From: Sphaerochaeta sp. Phil3
Lineage (GTDB): Bacteria; Spirochaetota; Spirochaetia; Sphaerochaetales; Sphaerochaetaceae
Assembly: GCA_001940825.1 (NCBI GenBank)
Contig: MSGT01000052.1
Coordinates: forward strand, 1-58,792
Length of the DNA: 58,792 nt
Reading direction: 5' to 3'
Below the pieces are notes generated by a model, which searched no databases, was not told the origin of the DNA, and was given only the letters and a program-made list of their open reading frames with translations. Numbering within the stretch: position 1 is the stretch's first letter; the number at the start of each line of letters is the position of its first letter. The position numbers were made by a program, and so were the translations under genes. Below, in pieces: positions 20,783 through 28,572 of this stretch.

Positions 20783-21036
20783 CTGATTCCTACATGTTGC
20801 AAAAATGTTGCAGTTTGACGAGGTTGTTGTTTTTATGTTGCCAAAATAACGGTTTTGCAAACTTGTGAGCTGCCTCAAACGACTGTTGAGAAAGTTTTAT
20901 GGCAAAGGTGTCAATACTGTGGTATACTGCCTGTATCAAACTAGTGGGCGTTGGAAGATTGTGCATAGGGGCTTTGGACCAAGTCTCATAGCCGTGTACG
21001 TTGGACGACGAAGACATCATTCCTTGGAGGTATGAA
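20783..21036 (+). promoter_or_regulatory. Promoter and structured leader of the ECF S-component gene
   Basis: An extended -10 box, TGGTATACT with TATACT at 20923-20928, is followed by a leader of about 100 nt. The leader can fold a 7-bp hairpin, GGGGCTT-TGGACC-AAGTCTC (20968-20987), with flanking GTGCA and TGTAC able to close it in an alternative fold. I could not match it to a known riboswitch class. A GGAGG (21026-21030) sets the start at 21037. Confidence 0.4.
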
Positions 21037-21633
21037 ATGGAAGAAAAGAAGAACATCGGCAAGCTGCTCTTGGGTGAGTGGAACACAAAGACGATCGTCG
21101 CCGTCGCTGTTGGTGCAGCTCTGTTCGGAGTCCTCATGTGCTACGGTGGAATCCCTGTGTTCACCAATACGAGCCTTACGACTGCAATGCTTGTGCCTGT
21201 CATCGTCGGAGGTCTCTTTGGACCTCTTCCTGCCTTCGTCGCAGCGGGCGTCGGCAACGTGATCGCTGACCTTATAGGCGGTTGGGGAATGTGGTTCGAC
21301 TGGTCAATTGGAAACGCCGTGATGGCATTCTGCGTTGGACTGCTTCCAGTCTATGGTGCAAACATCAAGGAAGGCGTCTTTGAAGTGAAGCATATGGTCA
21401 TCTATGCAATATGCTGCATTCTTGGAAACGTGATTTCGTTTGGGGTCATAACTCCAATCTTCACCGTCATCTTCTATGGTGGCGACCTTGAAGTCACTTT
21501 CATCCAGGCATTCGCTGCAACACTTGGAAACTTTGCGGTGTTGGTCGTAGTTGGAATCCCTGTTCTCAAGGTTCTTGCAAACCGCTACAAGTCAAGGTCC
21601 AACCTGGCTCAGGAGCACAGCGACAACTATTGA
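21037..21633 (+). CDS. ECF transporter S component, ECF-ribofla_trS/UPF0397-like
   Basis: A 198-residue integral membrane protein with about five or six helices, resembling the UPF0397 family of substrate-capture subunits. Shared features are the N-terminal WNTKTIVAVAVGAALFGVLM, a central AGVGNVIADLIGGWGMWFDWSIGNAVMAF and a C-terminal ATLGNFAVLVVVGIP. It binds the vitamin-like substrate and docks on the A-A'-T module encoded downstream. A strong terminator separates the two, so it is expressed partly apart. The ligand cannot be read from sequence; the DUF62 array nearby points to an adenosyl, methionine or purine-related compound. Confidence 0.8.
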   Translation: MEEKKNIGKLLLGEWNTKTIVAVAVGAALFGVLMCYGGIPVFTNTSLTTAMLVPVIVGGLFGPLPAFVAAGVGNVIADLIGGWGMWFDWSIGNAVMAFCVGLLPVYGANIKEGVFEVKHMVIYAICCILGNVISFGVITPIFTVIFYGGDLEVTFIQAFAATLGNFAVLVVVGIPVLKVLANRYKSRSNLAQEHSDNY

Positions 21634-21649
21634 TGTCGTGTCGCGGATT

Positions 21650-21681
21650 GGGGCTGTTGTATGGCAACAGCCCCTTTTTTT
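21650..21681 (+). terminator. Intrinsic terminator
   Basis: GGGGCTGTTG paired with CAACAGCCCC around a 5-nt loop (10-bp perfect stem) and followed by seven T residues. A textbook rho-independent terminator between the S-component gene and the ECF ATPase gene. Confidence 0.95.
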
Positions 21682-21755
21682 GGTTTTTCGCTCTATTGCT
21701 TGGACAATTGGACGAGAAACTTTGACCCCATTTAAAACGACGATAGGAACGATCA

Positions 21756-23549
21756 ATGGCTGATACGGTAATCAGATTCAAGGACTTTGGGTTCCAGTAC
21801 AAGGTTCAGCAGAAACCTACTTTGTACGATATAAACCTGGAGATACACAAAGGGGAGAAGGTTCTGATCCTTGGAGGATCGGGCAGTGGGAAGTCCACAT
21901 TGGCCAATTGCATAAACGGACTCATCCCATTTTCATACGAAGGGACCATAACAGGGTCCGTTGAAGTCAACGGACACGAAACCAAGGGTTCTTCGATTTA
22001 TAAGCTAAGCAAGGAAGTAGGTACTGTGCTTCAGGACAGCGACGCCCAGTTCGTTGGTCTCTCCGTTGCGGAGGATATAGCCTTTGCAATGGAGAACGAG
22101 TGCATACCGCGTTCCCAAATGGTTCCAATAGTGGAGGAACATGCTGCAACCGTTGGCATGCAGGATTTCCTAAAGGCTGTGCCGTTCGACCTTTCAGGAG
22201 GTCAGAAGCAAAAGGTCGGCATTGCAGGAGTCCTTGGAAGCAATGTGGATATCCTCATATTCGACGAGCCTTTGGCCGCATTGGATCCAAGAATGGGCGA
22301 GATGGCCATAGAGCTCATAGACCAGCTTGCCCAGGACAAGGAAAGGACCATAGTCATAATAGAGCATAGACTTGAAGATGTGCTTCACAGACGCGTGGAC
22401 AGGGTCATCCTAATGTCTGAGGGACGCATAGTCGCAGACACGACGCCAGATGAGATTCTCAAAGGTACTCTTCTCCAGCAGTACGGGATACGAGAACCTC
22501 TCTATATTACCGCAATGAAGTATGCAGGTTGCAGTCTTGAAGGAAACGATGGCCTAAGCAGCATAGACAACATGGTTTTCTCTAATGAAAGCCGTGAGAA
22601 ACTCCTTCGTTTCTTTGAAAGCCAGGTGGAGTCCCATGAACCTCATCTTGGTGAGGAGCTTGTAGCGGTGAAGGATGTGTCCTTCTCATACGATGACAGC
22701 CGCAAGGTCCTTGAGGATGTCTCGTTTACGATCCACAAGGGTGAACGCATAGCCGTAGTTGGCAGAAACGGGGCTGGAAAGTCCACCGCCGCAAAGCTTA
22801 TATGCGGAATCTGCCGTCCCAACAAAGGTTCCATAACCATAGACGGCAAGGATGCCAAAGGCCTTTCCATAAAGGAGATTGGCGAGCGTGTTGGCTATGT
22901 CATGCAGAACCCCAACCAAATGATCGTGAAGGACACGATAAAGAACGAGGTCGAATATGCGCTCACGCTACGCAATATGCCAAGGGATCAGATAATAGCC
23001 CGTGCGACTGATGCCCTCAATGCATGCAGCCTCTTTCCCATGCGCAACTGGCCTGTCGATACGGTGAGCTATGGACAGAAGAAGAGGATAACCGTTGCAT
23101 CCATACTGGTGCTTCAACCTGATGTGATAATCCTTGACGAACCGTCTGCCGGACAGGACTACAGAAGCTACACTGAGATCATGAAGTTCCTTGATGTCCT
23201 CAACAAGGAGTATGGCAAGACCATAGTGTTCATAACCCATGACATGCACCTTGCTTTGGAGAACACTGACAGAGCCATAGTGTTCACCGATGGAAGGCTG
23301 CTCAAGGACGACAGGACGTTTGCCGTACTTGCGGACAACGACACCATTGAAAAGGCCAATCTCAAACAGACGTCCCTCTACAGACTCGCCCAAAGGCTTG
23401 GACTTGAGCCCGAGAGGGTCATACGCCATTTCATAGACTACGAGAACTACAGAAGCCGTGAAAAGGGGAACGCCAAAGACGAAGAGTTCGAAGGCAAAGA
23501 ACTTGAAGACGTAGAAGCTGAAGACTCAAAGGAGGGTGGACAGGCATGA
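21756..23549 (+). CDS. ECF transporter fused A-A' ATPase
   Basis: A 597-residue protein made of two ABC domains. Domain 1 has Walker A GGSGSGKST, signature LSGGQKQKVGIAG and Walker B ILIFDEP. Domain 2 has Walker A GRNGAGKST, an altered signature VSYGQKKRITVAS and Walker B VIILDEPSAGQD. This is the fused EcfA-EcfA' arrangement (YkoD-like). It energises import through the S and T subunits. The start has AGGAA 6 nt upstream. The charged Glu/Asp/Lys-rich C-terminal tail overlaps the EcfT gene by 4 nt. A weak promoter, TTGGAC-17-TTTAAA, may lie upstream. Confidence 0.93.
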   Translation: MADTVIRFKDFGFQYKVQQKPTLYDINLEIHKGEKVLILGGSGSGKSTLANCINGLIPFSYEGTITGSVEVNGHETKGSSIYKLSKEVGTVLQDSDAQFVGLSVAEDIAFAMENECIPRSQMVPIVEEHAATVGMQDFLKAVPFDLSGGQKQKVGIAGVLGSNVDILIFDEPLAALDPRMGEMAIELIDQLAQDKERTIVIIEHRLEDVLHRRVDRVILMSEGRIVADTTPDEILKGTLLQQYGIREPLYITAMKYAGCSLEGNDGLSSIDNMVFSNESREKLLRFFESQVESHEPHLGEELVAVKDVSFSYDDSRKVLEDVSFTIHKGERIAVVGRNGAGKSTAAKLICGICRPNKGSITIDGKDAKGLSIKEIGERVGYVMQNPNQMIVKDTIKNEVEYALTLRNMPRDQIIARATDALNACSLFPMRNWPVDTVSYGQKKRITVASILVLQPDVIILDEPSAGQDYRSYTEIMKFLDVLNKEYGKTIVFITHDMHLALENTDRAIVFTDGRLLKDDRTFAVLADNDTIEKANLKQTSLYRLAQRLGLEPERVIRHFIDYENYRSREKGNAKDEEFEGKELEDVEAEDSKEGGQA

Positions 23550-24466
23550 ACAACAGATTCCTGATAAACTTCACTCCAGGCAGCACGATGATGCACAAGC
23601 TTACAGGGGGAACCAAGGTCTTGCTGTTCGTCTTGTTCACCATTGCCATAATCGCCACGTTTGATGTAAGGGTCATAGCTGTGCTTTCGATCCTTCCAAT
23701 AGCCGCAATCATATCCATGAAGCCAAACTACAAACCCATAAGGTTCATGATAGGCTTCATGGTTCTTGTGGTTGGCATAATTGGCTCTCTAATGCTACTT
23801 CTCGTGTCTCCCAACGCCGGCCTTACAAACGTTGGCGGCAGCACCGTGATATGGCGCCTTGGTGAGAACTTCTTCGTCACGAAGGAGACCCTTTGGTACA
23901 TATTCGCAATGTTCGTCAAAAGGCTTGCCTCCTTCATGGTCGTCATAGCGTTCGTGCTTGCGACGACTCCAAGCGAGTTTGCATCGGGCTTGGCCTTCCT
24001 GCACGTTCCATACAAGGTGTGCACCATCGTCTCCCTTGCATACAGGACGATTCCAGACATTGCAAGACGCTATACCGACATAAAGAACAGCATGCAGATG
24101 CGCGGCGTCGAACTCTCGAAGAAGGCCTCCCTTGGAAAACGCCTCAAGGCCACTGCGGCGCTTCTGGTTCCACTTGTCGTATCGTCCTTTGGAAAGGTCG
24201 AGGTCATAGCCAACGCAATGGACCTAAGGGGGTTCGGACGGCTCAAGAAAAGGACCTGGTACTCCGAGCACGAGCTCACCAAGGCCGACAAGGTCCTAAG
24301 GAAGCTGTGCATTCTGTTCACGATTGGAATCGTGGCCTATATCGTTTGGTTCAGAGTCATAAATCCATGGCCTGTAACGTATTGGAGTCCGTTCATAGCC
24401 CGTGAGGACATCGTGAAGGTGGGTCGTTTCGAAACCCTGTCCATCCTCAAGTGGTTTGGCAAATAG
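23546..24466 (+). CDS. ECF transporter T component (EcfT)
   Basis: A 306-residue membrane coupling protein with about four or five helices near the N-terminus and the cytoplasmic coupling motifs AMDLRGFGR and, upstream, QMRGVELSKKASLGKRL, which contact the A and A' subunits through Ala-Arg-Gly-type sequences. It is translationally coupled to the ATPase gene by an ATGA overlap. The first DUF62 gene follows 37 nt after its stop, so the transporter and the adenosyl enzymes are probably one transcript. Confidence 0.92.
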   Translation: MNNRFLINFTPGSTMMHKLTGGTKVLLFVLFTIAIIATFDVRVIAVLSILPIAAIISMKPNYKPIRFMIGFMVLVVGIIGSLMLLLVSPNAGLTNVGGSTVIWRLGENFFVTKETLWYIFAMFVKRLASFMVVIAFVLATTPSEFASGLAFLHVPYKVCTIVSLAYRTIPDIARRYTDIKNSMQMRGVELSKKASLGKRLKATAALLVPLVVSSFGKVEVIANAMDLRGFGRLKKRTWYSEHELTKADKVLRKLCILFTIGIVAYIVWFRVINPWPVTYWSPFIAREDIVKVGRFETLSILKWFGK

Positions 24467-24502: not shown

Positions 24503-25342
24503 ATGAAAAGAGCAGTAGTACTACAGACCGATTTTGGCGAGGGCAACGTATCGGTCTCGACAATGAAAGGTGTTTGCAGAATCGTGGACCCAACGCTTGA
24601 GGTCTTCGATTCGACCCATTCCGTAAGGCCGTTCGATGTACTCAAGGCAAGCGACGCCTTGTTCTACGTCATTCCCTTCTGGCCTGCTGGAACCGTATTC
24701 GTGTCGGTCGTAGACCCTGGTGTTGGAACGTCGCGCAAGTCGTGCGTTGCGCTTCTGGAGAACGGAAGCTATGTTGTCACTCCTGACAATGGAACGCTTA
24801 CCTACATCAAGGATAGGCTTGGCATAAAGCAGGTGAGACAGATAGACGAGACCACGAACCGCTACCCAACGACGCGCGACGTGCATATCTTCCATGGCCG
24901 GGATGTCTATGCCTACACCGCCGCACGCCTTGCTGGCGGAGTGATAGACTACGAAGGGGTGGGTCCTGAATATCCTGTGTCCCAGATAGTCGAAGCCCCT
25001 TATGTGAAGCCTCGGAAGCTCGCTGACGAAGTCTACGGCATGATAGCCGATTCCTCAGTTCACTTTGGACTTGTCACCACGAACATCCCGTTCCGTTGGT
25101 TGGCAGAGTGCGGTATGGAATATGGCGACAATGTGAATATACGCATCGAGAATGCAGGTGAGTGCGTTCTTGAAGAAGTCGTTCCAATAGCCAAGAGCTT
25201 TGGGTTCGTGCCAGAGGGCTGCGATTTGGTCTACAATTCCGAGACCTCCATGATTGAGGTTGCAACGAACCGTAGGAACATGGTCGTTGAGCGCAATCTT
25301 GGCGATGGCGCTGATTGGACCCTTGCTGTACGCAAGGCCTGA
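24503..25342 (+). CDS. SAM hydroxide adenosyltransferase family (DUF62), paralogue A, intact
   Basis: A 279-residue DUF62 protein. Family members hydrolyse S-adenosylmethionine to adenosine and methionine, or transfer halide. The Asp-Arg-His triad of the hydrolases is present: Asp71 and Arg78 in VDPGVGTSRK and His131 in FHGRD. The nucleotide-binding TPDNGTL is also kept. The C-terminal beta-barrel domain (after about residue 170) is complete, ending in LGDGADWTLAVRK. The homotrimer active site lies between the N domain of one subunit and the C domain of the next. First of four tandem paralogues behind the ECF genes. Confidence 0.9.
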   Translation: MKRAVVLQTDFGEGNVSVSTMKGVCRIVDPTLEVFDSTHSVRPFDVLKASDALFYVIPFWPAGTVFVSVVDPGVGTSRKSCVALLENGSYVVTPDNGTLTYIKDRLGIKQVRQIDETTNRYPTTRDVHIFHGRDVYAYTAARLAGGVIDYEGVGPEYPVSQIVEAPYVKPRKLADEVYGMIADSSVHFGLVTTNIPFRWLAECGMEYGDNVNIRIENAGECVLEEVVPIAKSFGFVPEGCDLVYNSETSMIEVATNRRNMVVERNLGDGADWTLAVRKA

Positions 25343-25358
25343 CGAAGGAAGGTTTGAT

Positions 25359-26207
25359 ATGGATTCAAATGGAAAGGTTTCAAGGAAATCGGTCCCAAGT
25401 GGGGGACTTGTCGCCGTGCAGAGCGATTACGGCATGGGCGGTGCAGCTTCCAAGATCGTTGGCAGCATACTGTCCACAAGTCCAAGTACGACCGTCTACG
25501 ATGTGACAAGTGCAATTCCCAAAGGGGATGTGGCCACAGCTTCGTGCGCGATGTATTCGTTCTTCCAATTCTTTCCTGTTGGGAGCGTGTGCCTCTCCCT
25601 CGTTGGTGAGGGAAGGCCGTGTGTCGTGAAGACCTCTCAGGGCCGATGCATAGTGACGCCTGACAACGGAACGCTTACCGCATGGTATTCCAAGTTCCCT
25701 TTCGAAGAGGTCCGAGAGGTGGATCTGTCCGGTGCTCCTGACGGCTGCATCCCTCTTGCGTGGGCCGCAGCCCGTCTTGCAAGTGGAAAGTGCTCCTTTG
25801 AGGACATGGGACCTTCTTATTCCGTAAAGGACATCGTGCTTATTGACGCCAAGCCTGCAAAGGTTGGAGACGGCGTTGTGGAGTGTGGGGTGTTCAGCCT
25901 TGTGAGGAACTTTGGAAACCTGAACCTGAGTGCCACATACGAGGAGTTCGAGAAGTCCGGCATACGCTTTGGAGATCATGTCAATGTCCTGATGCGTAGG
26001 GATGGCGTTGAAATATTCAACGAAGATATGCTCTATGAGCATTCTTTTGGATTCGCAAAGCCTGGAGATCCAATCCTTTTCAACGGAAGCACCGGCTACA
26101 TGGGACTGGGGCTCAACCTTGAAAGCTTCGTCTCGAAGTATATGCCGGAGTCAATGGAGGATGGGTTCGACCTGTCTCGCTATGAGATTGCTATAAGAAG
26201 GATCTGA
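25359..26207 (+). CDS. DUF62 paralogue B, catalytic residues lost (pseudoenzyme)
   Basis: A 282-residue DUF62 protein that keeps the fold landmarks (VQSDYGMGG, IVTPDNGTLT, RLASGKCSFEDMGPSYSV and the full C-terminal domain ending YEIAIRRI) but has lost the catalytic triad. The VDPGVGTSRK segment is replaced by LVGEGRPC, and FHGRDVYAYTAARLASG by PDGCIPLAWAAARLASG. Hydrolysis is not expected; ligand binding or a structural role in a mixed trimer is possible. The start has AAGGAAGG 6 nt upstream. It sits between two intact paralogues in the same operon, 4 nt from the next gene. Confidence 0.85.
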   Translation: MDSNGKVSRKSVPSGGLVAVQSDYGMGGAASKIVGSILSTSPSTTVYDVTSAIPKGDVATASCAMYSFFQFFPVGSVCLSLVGEGRPCVVKTSQGRCIVTPDNGTLTAWYSKFPFEEVREVDLSGAPDGCIPLAWAAARLASGKCSFEDMGPSYSVKDIVLIDAKPAKVGDGVVECGVFSLVRNFGNLNLSATYEEFEKSGIRFGDHVNVLMRRDGVEIFNEDMLYEHSFGFAKPGDPILFNGSTGYMGLGLNLESFVSKYMPESMEDGFDLSRYEIAIRRI

Positions 26208-26211
26208 AGAT

Positions 26212-27141
26212 ATGAGTGATGTGGAAGTTGGAAATGCCACTGTGAATGGTGGCAAACCTGACATTGTTTTGATGACTGACTTTGGGCTTACGACAGGTTT
26301 TGTAGGTTCCATGTACGGCGTGATACGCAAGGTGGACCAAAGCCTTGGAGTGTTCGACCTCAACCATGAGATACGACCATACGACATGAGACAGGCAGCT
26401 TTCCTGCTCGCCGATACCGTCATGTACTGGAAGGACGGAACCGTTTTCGTATCCGTCGTAGACCCTGGAGTTGGAACATCACGCAAGTCGTGCGTTGCGC
26501 TTTTGGAGAATGGCAGCTATGTGGTGACTCCTGACAACGGAACGCTAACTGCAGTGAAGGACCACATTGTTGCAGTGCGTGAGATAGACGAGAGCGTCAA
26601 CCGCCTCTCTGGATCGGAGCGTGCCAACAGTTTCCATGGCCGTGATGTCTATGCCTACACCGCTGCTCGCCTTGCTTCTGGTATAATCGATTACGAGGGG
26701 GTGGGGCCTGAGTATTCCGTAGATGAGATAGTTTTGTTTCCCCAGACCAAGGGCCACGTGGAACCTGGTCTCGCAAGGGGCTGCATAACGGGCTGCCTCA
26801 AGCACTTTGGCTCTCCTGAGACCGATATCTCAGTGGTTGACTTCGAGAAGACAGGCATAGTGTACGGCGACATGGTCCATGTTCGCATAGAGAAGAAAGG
26901 TGCGGTTCTCTTTGATATGCCTGTGCTCTATCACAAGTCGTTTGGGTTCGTGCCTGAAGGCGAGCCCATACTTTGCAACGGAAGCACAAGTCCATACATG
27001 GAGATAAGCCTGAACAAACGCAGCTTCGCCCAGAGATACCTTCCAGACATCTTCGATGACGGCGAGGTTTTCACTGACTATTCCATTGAGATTTCAAAGC
27101 TATCGGGTTGTAGTGCCCACCAGTTTTCCAAGGAGGTGTGA
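26212..27141 (+). CDS. SAM hydroxide adenosyltransferase family (DUF62), paralogue C, intact
   Basis: A 309-residue paralogue with all three catalytic positions: Asp84 and Arg91 in VDPGVGTSRK and His142 in FHGRD. The stretch from VDPGVG to TPDNGTLT is identical in protein and nearly so in DNA to paralogue A, a sign of recent duplication or gene conversion. The C-terminal domain is complete. A longer N-terminus (about 16 extra residues) and a C-terminal tail distinguish it. The gene follows B by 4 nt and is followed 1 nt later by D. Confidence 0.9.
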   Translation: MSDVEVGNATVNGGKPDIVLMTDFGLTTGFVGSMYGVIRKVDQSLGVFDLNHEIRPYDMRQAAFLLADTVMYWKDGTVFVSVVDPGVGTSRKSCVALLENGSYVVTPDNGTLTAVKDHIVAVREIDESVNRLSGSERANSFHGRDVYAYTAARLASGIIDYEGVGPEYSVDEIVLFPQTKGHVEPGLARGCITGCLKHFGSPETDISVVDFEKTGIVYGDMVHVRIEKKGAVLFDMPVLYHKSFGFVPEGEPILCNGSTSPYMEISLNKRSFAQRYLPDIFDDGEVFTDYSIEISKLSGCSAHQFSKEV

Positions 27142-27142
27142 T

Positions 27143-27634
27143 ATGAGGCCATTTGTAGTTATGCAGACCGATTTTGGCGTAGGTGGCGGTGGTGCCATGT
27201 ACGGTGTATGCAAGACCGTTGACCCTGATCTAGGTGTCTACGACCTTAGCCATGTCATTCCAAAGTTCAATGTGGAGGCGGCGTCCAAGTCCTTGGTGTC
27301 AGTGATTCCATATTGGCCTGTCGGAACCGTGTTCGTATCCGTCGTGGATCCAGGCGTTGGAACTTCAAGGCGTGCATGCGTGGCAAAGACGTCCAACGGC
27401 TACTATGTCGTCACGCCTGACAACGGAACGCTTACGCTTCTCAAGAAGGAGTTTGGCATTGATGCCGTAAGGGAGATAGACGAGACCGTAAACAGGCTCA
27501 AGGGCACGGAGAAGACCAGCATATTCCATGGCAGAGACCTCTTTGCATACTGCGCCGCACGCCTTGCTTCAGGAGTGATAGACTTCGAAGGCGTTGGCCC
27601 TGGGTATCCAGTGGAGGAGATTGTCCTTTACTAG
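27143..27634 (+). CDS. DUF62 paralogue D, N-terminal domain only
   Basis: A 163-residue protein starting 6 nt after a perfect AGGAGG. It has an intact triad (Asp69, Arg76, His129) but ends at EEIVLY, exactly where the paralogues pass into the C-terminal domain. Because the active site needs the C domain of the neighbouring subunit, it could work only with a partner paralogue, or it is a decaying gene. No C-domain coding sequence follows; the convergent paralogue E begins to read 50 nt away. Confidence 0.8.
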   Translation: MRPFVVMQTDFGVGGGGAMYGVCKTVDPDLGVYDLSHVIPKFNVEAASKSLVSVIPYWPVGTVFVSVVDPGVGTSRRACVAKTSNGYYVVTPDNGTLTLLKKEFGIDAVREIDETVNRLKGTEKTSIFHGRDLFAYCAARLASGVIDFEGVGPGYPVEEIVLY

Positions 27635-27658: not shown

Positions 27659-27700
27659 GCTTCAGAAGGCGAGGCCGTTGGTGGTCAGGCTTTCTGAAGC
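27659..27700. terminator. Inverted repeat between convergent DUF62 genes
   Basis: GCTTCAGAA (27659-27667) pairs with TTCTGAAGC (27692-27700) around a GC-rich 24-nt loop that can extend the stem. It overlaps the last codons of paralogue E and may terminate both convergent transcripts. Confidence 0.5.
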
Positions 27701-28572
27701 TTTATTGCCCAGTTCTCACCTGAACCAATTCTGTACTCCTGTGCGAAGCTTCCTTGGTTTATTGCAAGGCCAACGTTCAGGAGGCTGTTTATGTACAGAA
27801 GCGGTTCGCCTATCTCCACTTCAGTGAAGTTCCTGCACATTCGCATCGTATAGCCAAAGACTATCTTGTGGTTGTGGCTTATGAGGACCCTCACATCGTC
27901 TCCGTACTTGATGCCGTACTTCTCGAAGATCATGGTGTCCGGGATGTTGGTCCAAAGGCTTCCATAGCGTGTGTCAAGGACGTCTATGTTTCCACAGACC
28001 TCTCCTCCTTCTATGACCGGATCCGATACGTTGAGCATGACGGGGTTTGGTTCAAGAAGGGGACCCACTTCGTCGAACGTTATGGTTCCGCTTGCAATCC
28101 TAGCTCCAGTGTATGCATACACGTCACGTCCATAGAAGGTGAACGACCTTTGGCTGTTCTTGAGCCTGTTGACGGTCTCGCTTATCCTACGTCTTTCAAG
28201 GATTCCAATCTCCTTTGCAACGTGCGACAGTGTGCCGTTGTCAGGTGTCACTATGACGTGTCCTGTTTTTGTAAGCACCGCCACGCTTTCACGTTCCGAT
28301 CCCACACCCGGGTCCACGACTGATACGAAAACGGTTCCGGGGGCCCAGAACGACATCGTTTGGATGAGTCTGTAGCTTGCCTCCCATATGTTGAACTGTG
28401 GGATTTCATGCGTAAGGTCTTCAAGCTTGAGGTTGTGGTCCACTTCGTCCGCAACTCCGTGCATGGCGCTCACGGCTCCGTCCACATATCCAAAGTCCGA
28501 CATGAACACAACAGTGCCCCTTTTCGTCCATGGTGCAAGCTCTTTGAGCTCCTTTGCGCTTTCGTATGTCAT
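27685..28572 (-). CDS. DUF62 paralogue E, catalytic His replaced by Tyr
   Basis: A 295-residue DUF62 protein on the opposite strand. Asp87 and Arg94 are present (VDPGVGSERE), but the conserved FHGRD reads FYGRD, with Tyr147 at the catalytic His position. The rest, including TPDNGTL and the C-terminal ending GSGENWAIKLQK, is conserved. It is the most diverged intact-length copy and may have altered chemistry or none. A GGAGG stands 9 nt before the ATG. The Rpn nuclease gene lies 50 nt upstream on the same strand. Confidence 0.85.
   Translation of the reverse strand: MTYESAKELKELAPWTKRGTVVFMSDFGYVDGAVSAMHGVADEVDHNLKLEDLTHEIPQFNIWEASYRLIQTMSFWAPGTVFVSVVDPGVGSERESVAVLTKTGHVIVTPDNGTLSHVAKEIGILERRRISETVNRLKNSQRSFTFYGRDVYAYTGARIASGTITFDEVGPLLEPNPVMLNVSDPVIEGGEVCGNIDVLDTRYGSLWTNIPDTMIFEKYGIKYGDDVRVLISHNHKIVFGYTMRMCRNFTEVEIGEPLLYINSLLNVGLAINQGSFAQEYRIGSGENWAIKLQKA

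Follow-up and report, generated by a model that had tools for sequence, protein, structure and literature searches.

A triad-free DUF62 protein in an unusual, ECF transporter-linked gene array of Sphaerochaeta sp. Phil3

Introduction

S-adenosylmethionine (SAM) is a common cell cofactor. One of the DUF62 (SAM_HAT) proteins encoded by Sphaerochaeta sp. Phil3, here called B, is by alignment a triad-free member of the family, and it is encoded in an unusual array of paralogues that display complementary losses. The B gene lies at positions 25359..26207 (+) of the window, that is, of the whole stretch of DNA that was analyzed (58,792 nucleotides), which is one entire contig (G000:C52); the draft genome to which it belongs has 2.36 Mb and a completeness of 96%. 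The explanation that we favor, and which we hold to be about evenly balanced between right and wrong, is that B is a translated and folding, but non-catalytic, SAM_HAT subunit of the ECF-linked type-2 array A to D, where it would either play a structural part in putative mixed trimers or bind adenosine within them. A literature search found no paper on a DUF62 pseudoenzyme or on a link between ECF transporters and DUF62.

The array and its neighbors

A profile search of the genome detected five copies of the SAM_HAT_N domain (PF01887), and all five are inside the window. The earlier note on this DNA had recognized three paralogues, A to C, and so fell two short, as the cluster also holds D and E. 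Pfam and alignment identify A (24503..25342, +) and C (26212..27141, +) as type-2 DUF62 copies in which the triad is present. B itself (282 amino acids; open reading frame, Pfam and AlphaFold2) has both domains, and D (27143..27634, +; open reading frame, Pfam and predicted model) consists of the N domain only, with the triad present and the C domain absent. The fifth copy, E (27685..28572, -; Pfam, alignment and tree), is the ancestral type-1 copy, and its catalytic His is replaced by Tyr.

Genes for an ECF transporter precede A to D on the same strand. Domain searches identified an S component (PF07155; 21001..21633, +), fused ECF ATPases (21756..23549, +) and a T component (23546..24466, +); a PDB sequence search with the S component gave no useful match. 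The intergenic gaps within the A to D array are only 1-16 nt, and B, C and D each have a Shine-Dalgarno sequence ahead of the start codon; the one that belongs to B, GAAGGAAGG (25344..25352, +), read directly from the sequence, is 6 nt before the ATG. A PD-(D/E)XK transposase-family gene (PF12784; 28623-29552, -) adjoins E and might relate to local rearrangement.

Loss of the catalytic loops in B

The reading frame of B was correctly described as fully open within the operon, with exact coordinates: the ATG is at 25359, the stop codon ends at 26207 and there are 282 open codons between them. Both Pfam domains score above their cut-offs (SAM_HAT_N, 64.2 bits vs 26.3; SAM_HAT_C, 33.5 bits vs 25.5), and this, together with Z scores of 24-27 to family structures, places B in the SAM_HAT/DUF62 fold family. 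The N domains of the other four copies score 145-158 bits, and in a class-wide search the N domain of B scored 65.9 bits, with the next-lowest full-length match at 133.6 bits.

The catalytic triad of the (R)-SAM hydrolase PH0463 is Asp68-Arg75-His127 (PMC4859513). In the alignment, A and C carry VDPGVGTSRKSC where B has LVGEGRPC (25599..25622, +), a shortened first catalytic loop from which Asp68 and Arg75 are gone. Likewise, the FHGRDVYA segment of A and C is replaced in B by PDGCIP (25737..25754, +), a shortened second loop that lacks His127 and the GRD motif. Both replacements, and the disappearance of all three triad residues, had been noticed before and are borne out here. In both places the loop has been shortened without a shift of frame; in the predicted models, the beta3-beta4 loop has 4 residues in B vs 10 in D, and the loop that precedes the helix at FHGRD has 11 residues in B vs 20 in D. 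The NCBIfam equivalog NF058624 (cut-off 350) does not discriminate in this case, because the triad-bearing copies (100-123 bits) fall below the cut-off just as B does (49.9 bits).

Structural modeling, which the earlier note had proposed, gave a confident AlphaFold2 fold for B (pLDDT 93.3, pTM 0.87). VIA-align superimposed the model on 2zbu with a Z score of 26.8 (rmsd 2.4 over 248 residues), on SalL with 25.5 and on PH0463 with 24, and SAM hydrolases and chlorinases together span Z scores of 24-27. Alignment and predicted structure agree that B is an enzyme homologue that has lost its catalytic residues and kept its fold, which is the definition of a pseudoenzyme. The loss of hydrolase catalysis in B is strongly supported.

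Conservation in relatives and sister copies

Conservation was judged from 143 distinct, aligned homologues of the same phylum. Each of the 143 has Asp68, Arg75 and both the Arg and the Asp of GRD, and B has none of them, a difference for which chance is no explanation. The third triad column is less strict, with His in 120 of the 143 relatives and Tyr, Phe, Asp or Gln in the other 23. This variation, which includes the Tyr of copy E, contrasts with a review that describes the Asp-Arg-His triad as strictly conserved (PMC10491745).

In the fluorinase structure, Asp16 contacts the ribose hydroxyls, Asp210 the Met amino group and Asn215 the adenine amino group, and Thr76 and Tyr77 also contact the ribose (PMC1282579). 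According to the alignment, B keeps the equivalent of Asp16 as Asp23 (25425..25427, +) and the equivalent of Asn215 as Asn187 (25917..25919, +), and it has Val182 (25902..25904, +) at the position of Asp210, which is Asp in 143 of the 143 relatives. No other array member has Asn at the 215 column (A has Leu and C has Ser), but this is only a hint, because the column is variable among the 143 relatives (N 47, S 83, others 13). The earlier view that the whole C domain of B remains therefore holds for its length and fold, but not for the invariant Asp.

The sister copies are not intact either. In a gapless local alignment, the Asp210 column has Asp in E, as in the relatives, but Ser in A and Leu in C, and D ends where the N domain ends. 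By alignment, then, part of the ordinary SAM site is lost in every array member from A to D, and as a result A and C, which had been taken as ordinary active enzymes, cannot be assumed to be such. Of the conserved sites, E retains 70 of 73 and 21 of 21, but it has Tyr in place of the His.

Two other observations concern the layout of such genes. D amounts to a free-standing DUF62 N domain in which the triad is complete, and it gives a confident model by itself (pLDDT 92.9). Clusters of three DUF62 genes also occur in the same class at L149 (G591), L150 (G606) and L151 (G554); the full-length copies aligned from these clusters retain Asp68, Arg75 and the Asp210 equivalent.

Is B maintained?

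The pattern of change in B differs between its two domains. When G087 served as the outgroup in a relative-rate test that paired B with C, the N domain had 42 v 16 changes (p=0.0009) and the C domain 12 v 10 (p=0.83); against A, the counts were 42 v 13 and 16 v 18, respectively. The C-domain test has less power because this domain is fast in every copy. Of the N-domain sites conserved among the type-2 relatives, B keeps 38 of 83 (A 73, C 73 and D 78), and of the C-domain sites, 13 of 25 (A 14 and C 17). Judged by these counts, the release from constraint is limited to the catalytic (N) domain of B. General decay should affect both domains, so this pattern counts against it.

The open frame can be weighed in a similar manner. 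When neutral change was simulated on B, the frame stayed open in 4.8% of the runs at 0.15 substitutions/site and in 0.1% (P 0.001) at 0.5 substitutions/site. Between B and its sisters A, C and D, 71-74% of the synonymous sites are different, and a fit with omega_B set to 1 still yields a branch of about 0.5-0.7 neutral substitutions per nucleotide (t divided by three), which makes neutrality along the whole branch very unlikely. An open frame behind a strong Shine-Dalgarno sequence also speaks against long neutral decay, and the codon-position G+C of B is the same as that of its neighbors. A recent loss of constraint, within less than about 0.15 substitutions/site, may have occurred.

The dN/dS comparison that the earlier note suggested is less decisive: omega_B was 0.25-0.55, with saturated synonymous sites, and the test against 1 was significant in two of five settings, which include three- and four-taxon fits. 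A branch codon model of ten type-2 genes, with an omega_B of 0.25 vs 0.03 for the background, was set aside as untrustworthy, as its branch lengths saturate. The frame, the start signal, the confident fold, the codon-position composition and a C-domain rate no faster than in A and C favor the view that B is maintained but fall short of proof, and the dN/dS tests are equivocal and disagree with one another. Searches of 139 family/order, 393 phylum and 395 class genomes, of genome contigs and of viral contigs returned no orthologue of B, which leaves no population-level test of selection. The closest match to B in another genome (38%), a protein of G429, is an ordinary triad-bearing type-2 copy and not an orthologue.

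Origin of the array

In a phylogenetic tree, E is inside the vertical family clade, alongside its congeners, and A, C and D are outside this clade, grouped with second-copy DUF62 genes from other genera. B itself cannot be placed reliably: its branch, with 5.8 changes per column, is longer than any other in the tree. In two congeners (L116 and L117), the ECF S component, ATPases and T component are followed by a converging E, and the interval between the T component and E is empty. The ECF proteins of the window are closest to those of G087, which is another genus, and more distant from those of the congeners: 64% vs 29-33% for the S component, 61% vs 51-53% for the ATPase and 46% vs 38-39% for the T component. 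The simplest account would be that the transporter was replaced and that type-2 DUF62 genes were imported and expanded with it.

ECF ATPases of the same type adjoin DUF62 in about 30 of the 39 longer loci (hand count), and an ECF transporter with fused ATPases beside DUF62 genes is found in most loci examined (21001-24466 in the window; L039-L056 and L103-L121). In G087 (L039:9484-10956, -), an open reading frame that resembles an M20-type peptidase by eye is located between the ECF T component and a DUF62 pair. As A and C encode identical protein over about 37 residues of the catalytic segment, recent gene conversion between the two was considered, but it is ruled out because the synonymous differences persist (pS 0.56).

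A proposed non-catalytic subunit and its alternatives

In the DUF62 family, the two contacting domains of a site come from neighboring subunits. The active sites of both DUF62 and fluorinase sit at the protomer interface of the trimer (PMC12120602), and both domains touch the ligand (PMC1282579). This location between subunits is the reason to consider B as a mixed-trimer partner. The loops that bear the water-activating triad are cut short in frame, B alone does not have the residues that activate water, and SAM splitting by B on its own is not expected. The Asp that binds the Met amino group has been lost, with the ribose-binding Asp and the adenine-binding Asn kept; the N domain has been freed from active-site constraint, with the C domain evolving as in the sister copies. 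As a putative trimer subunit, B could then offer its C-domain wall to the triads of A, C or D. D, which has a triad and no C domain, must borrow a C domain if it is active. The residues that B retains fit an adenosine/nucleoside binder or a structural mixed-trimer subunit better than a SAM sensor, an idea of the earlier note that is weakened because the equivalent of Asp210 is lost.

The strongest rival, although we consider it unlikely to be correct, is that A to D are relaxed duplicates in the process of being lost. The ECF block and type-2 DUF62 genes would have entered beside E and duplicated, and the copies would now be shedding invariant residues in turn, with B furthest gone and E working as it does in the congeners. 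That A, C and D also lack invariant parts counts against a dedicated non-catalytic subunit and fits array-wide decay, since something invariant is missing from all four members. The truncation of D, the presence of the E copy alone in two congeners, the exceptional length of the B branch and the three of five settings in which omega_B=1 is unrejected point in the same direction. However, decay has to account for four frames that are open and have good start signals, for conserved N domains in A, C and D (pN 0.28-0.30 vs pS 0.59-0.70), for the C domain of B, which changes no faster than that of A or C, and for the lack of the stops expected if B were neutral along its whole branch.

Another reading, to which we attach a distinctly smaller probability, is that A to D form an obligate mixed enzyme with E, tied to the ECF transporter, in which A, C and D would supply the triads through their N domains and E and B the C-domain walls, so that the interfacial site would be split between paralogues.

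It is more doubtful still that B alone, as a homotrimer, is an adenosine/nucleoside binding protein, either a sensor or a carrier, for an ECF-linked pathway. The contacts to ribose and adenine kept next to the lost Met contact and triad would suit this role, as would the position of B in the ECF operon, but B has no DNA-binding or signaling domain, and the shortened loops also supply ribose contacts in fluorinase (Thr76 and Tyr77 there).

A halogenase-like or otherwise re-purposed adenosyl enzyme is very improbable, for although two chlorinases without the triad, ClA1 and SalL, are the best solved relatives of B by sequence and by Foldseek, they rank first only because B lost the hydrolase motifs; 2zbu, a DUF62 protein with hydrolase motifs, is at least as close by VIA-align, and C, with hydrolase motifs, prefers hydrolases. 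Halide is held by Thr80/Ser158 in fluorinase and by Tyr70/Gly131 in SalL (PMC4859513), and the loop around Thr80/Tyr70 is deleted in B, not substituted, with one Gly that may align with Gly131.

Comparison with known systems

The non-catalytic subunit that we favor can be compared with three known systems. B shares with the (R)-SAM hydrolases, or SAM hydroxide adenosyltransferases (PF01887 + PF20257; PH0463, MJ1651 and StDUF62) the two-domain fold, the domain order, the TPDNG motif, the ribose-binding Asp and the F and G of the FGN motif; unlike them, it has lost Asp68, Arg75, His127, GRD and the Asp210 equivalent, and both of its catalytic loops are shorter. With the SAM-dependent halogenases (fluorinase FlA and the chlorinases SalL and ClA1), it has in common the fold, the absence of the triad and the Asn215 equivalent, but its halide-holding loop is deleted, its Asp210 is lost and the identity is only 22-27%. 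Non-catalytic partners of the DNMT3L type (PMC1282579) are also dead paralogues of SAM enzymes kept beside live ones, although their fold is unrelated and the partner role of B is putative.

Conclusions

The cellular role of the DUF62 SAM hydrolases is debated. Among the relatives, ECF and DUF62 genes are frequently linked, and this suggests that transport is the physiological context. The products of the Sphaerochaeta cluster may act together as a mixed complex, or the cluster may be in slow decay; with one triad-free copy, two triad copies that lack the Met anchor and one copy that lacks the C domain, all beside an ECF transporter, it is a natural test of mixed trimers and of SAM as the ligand.
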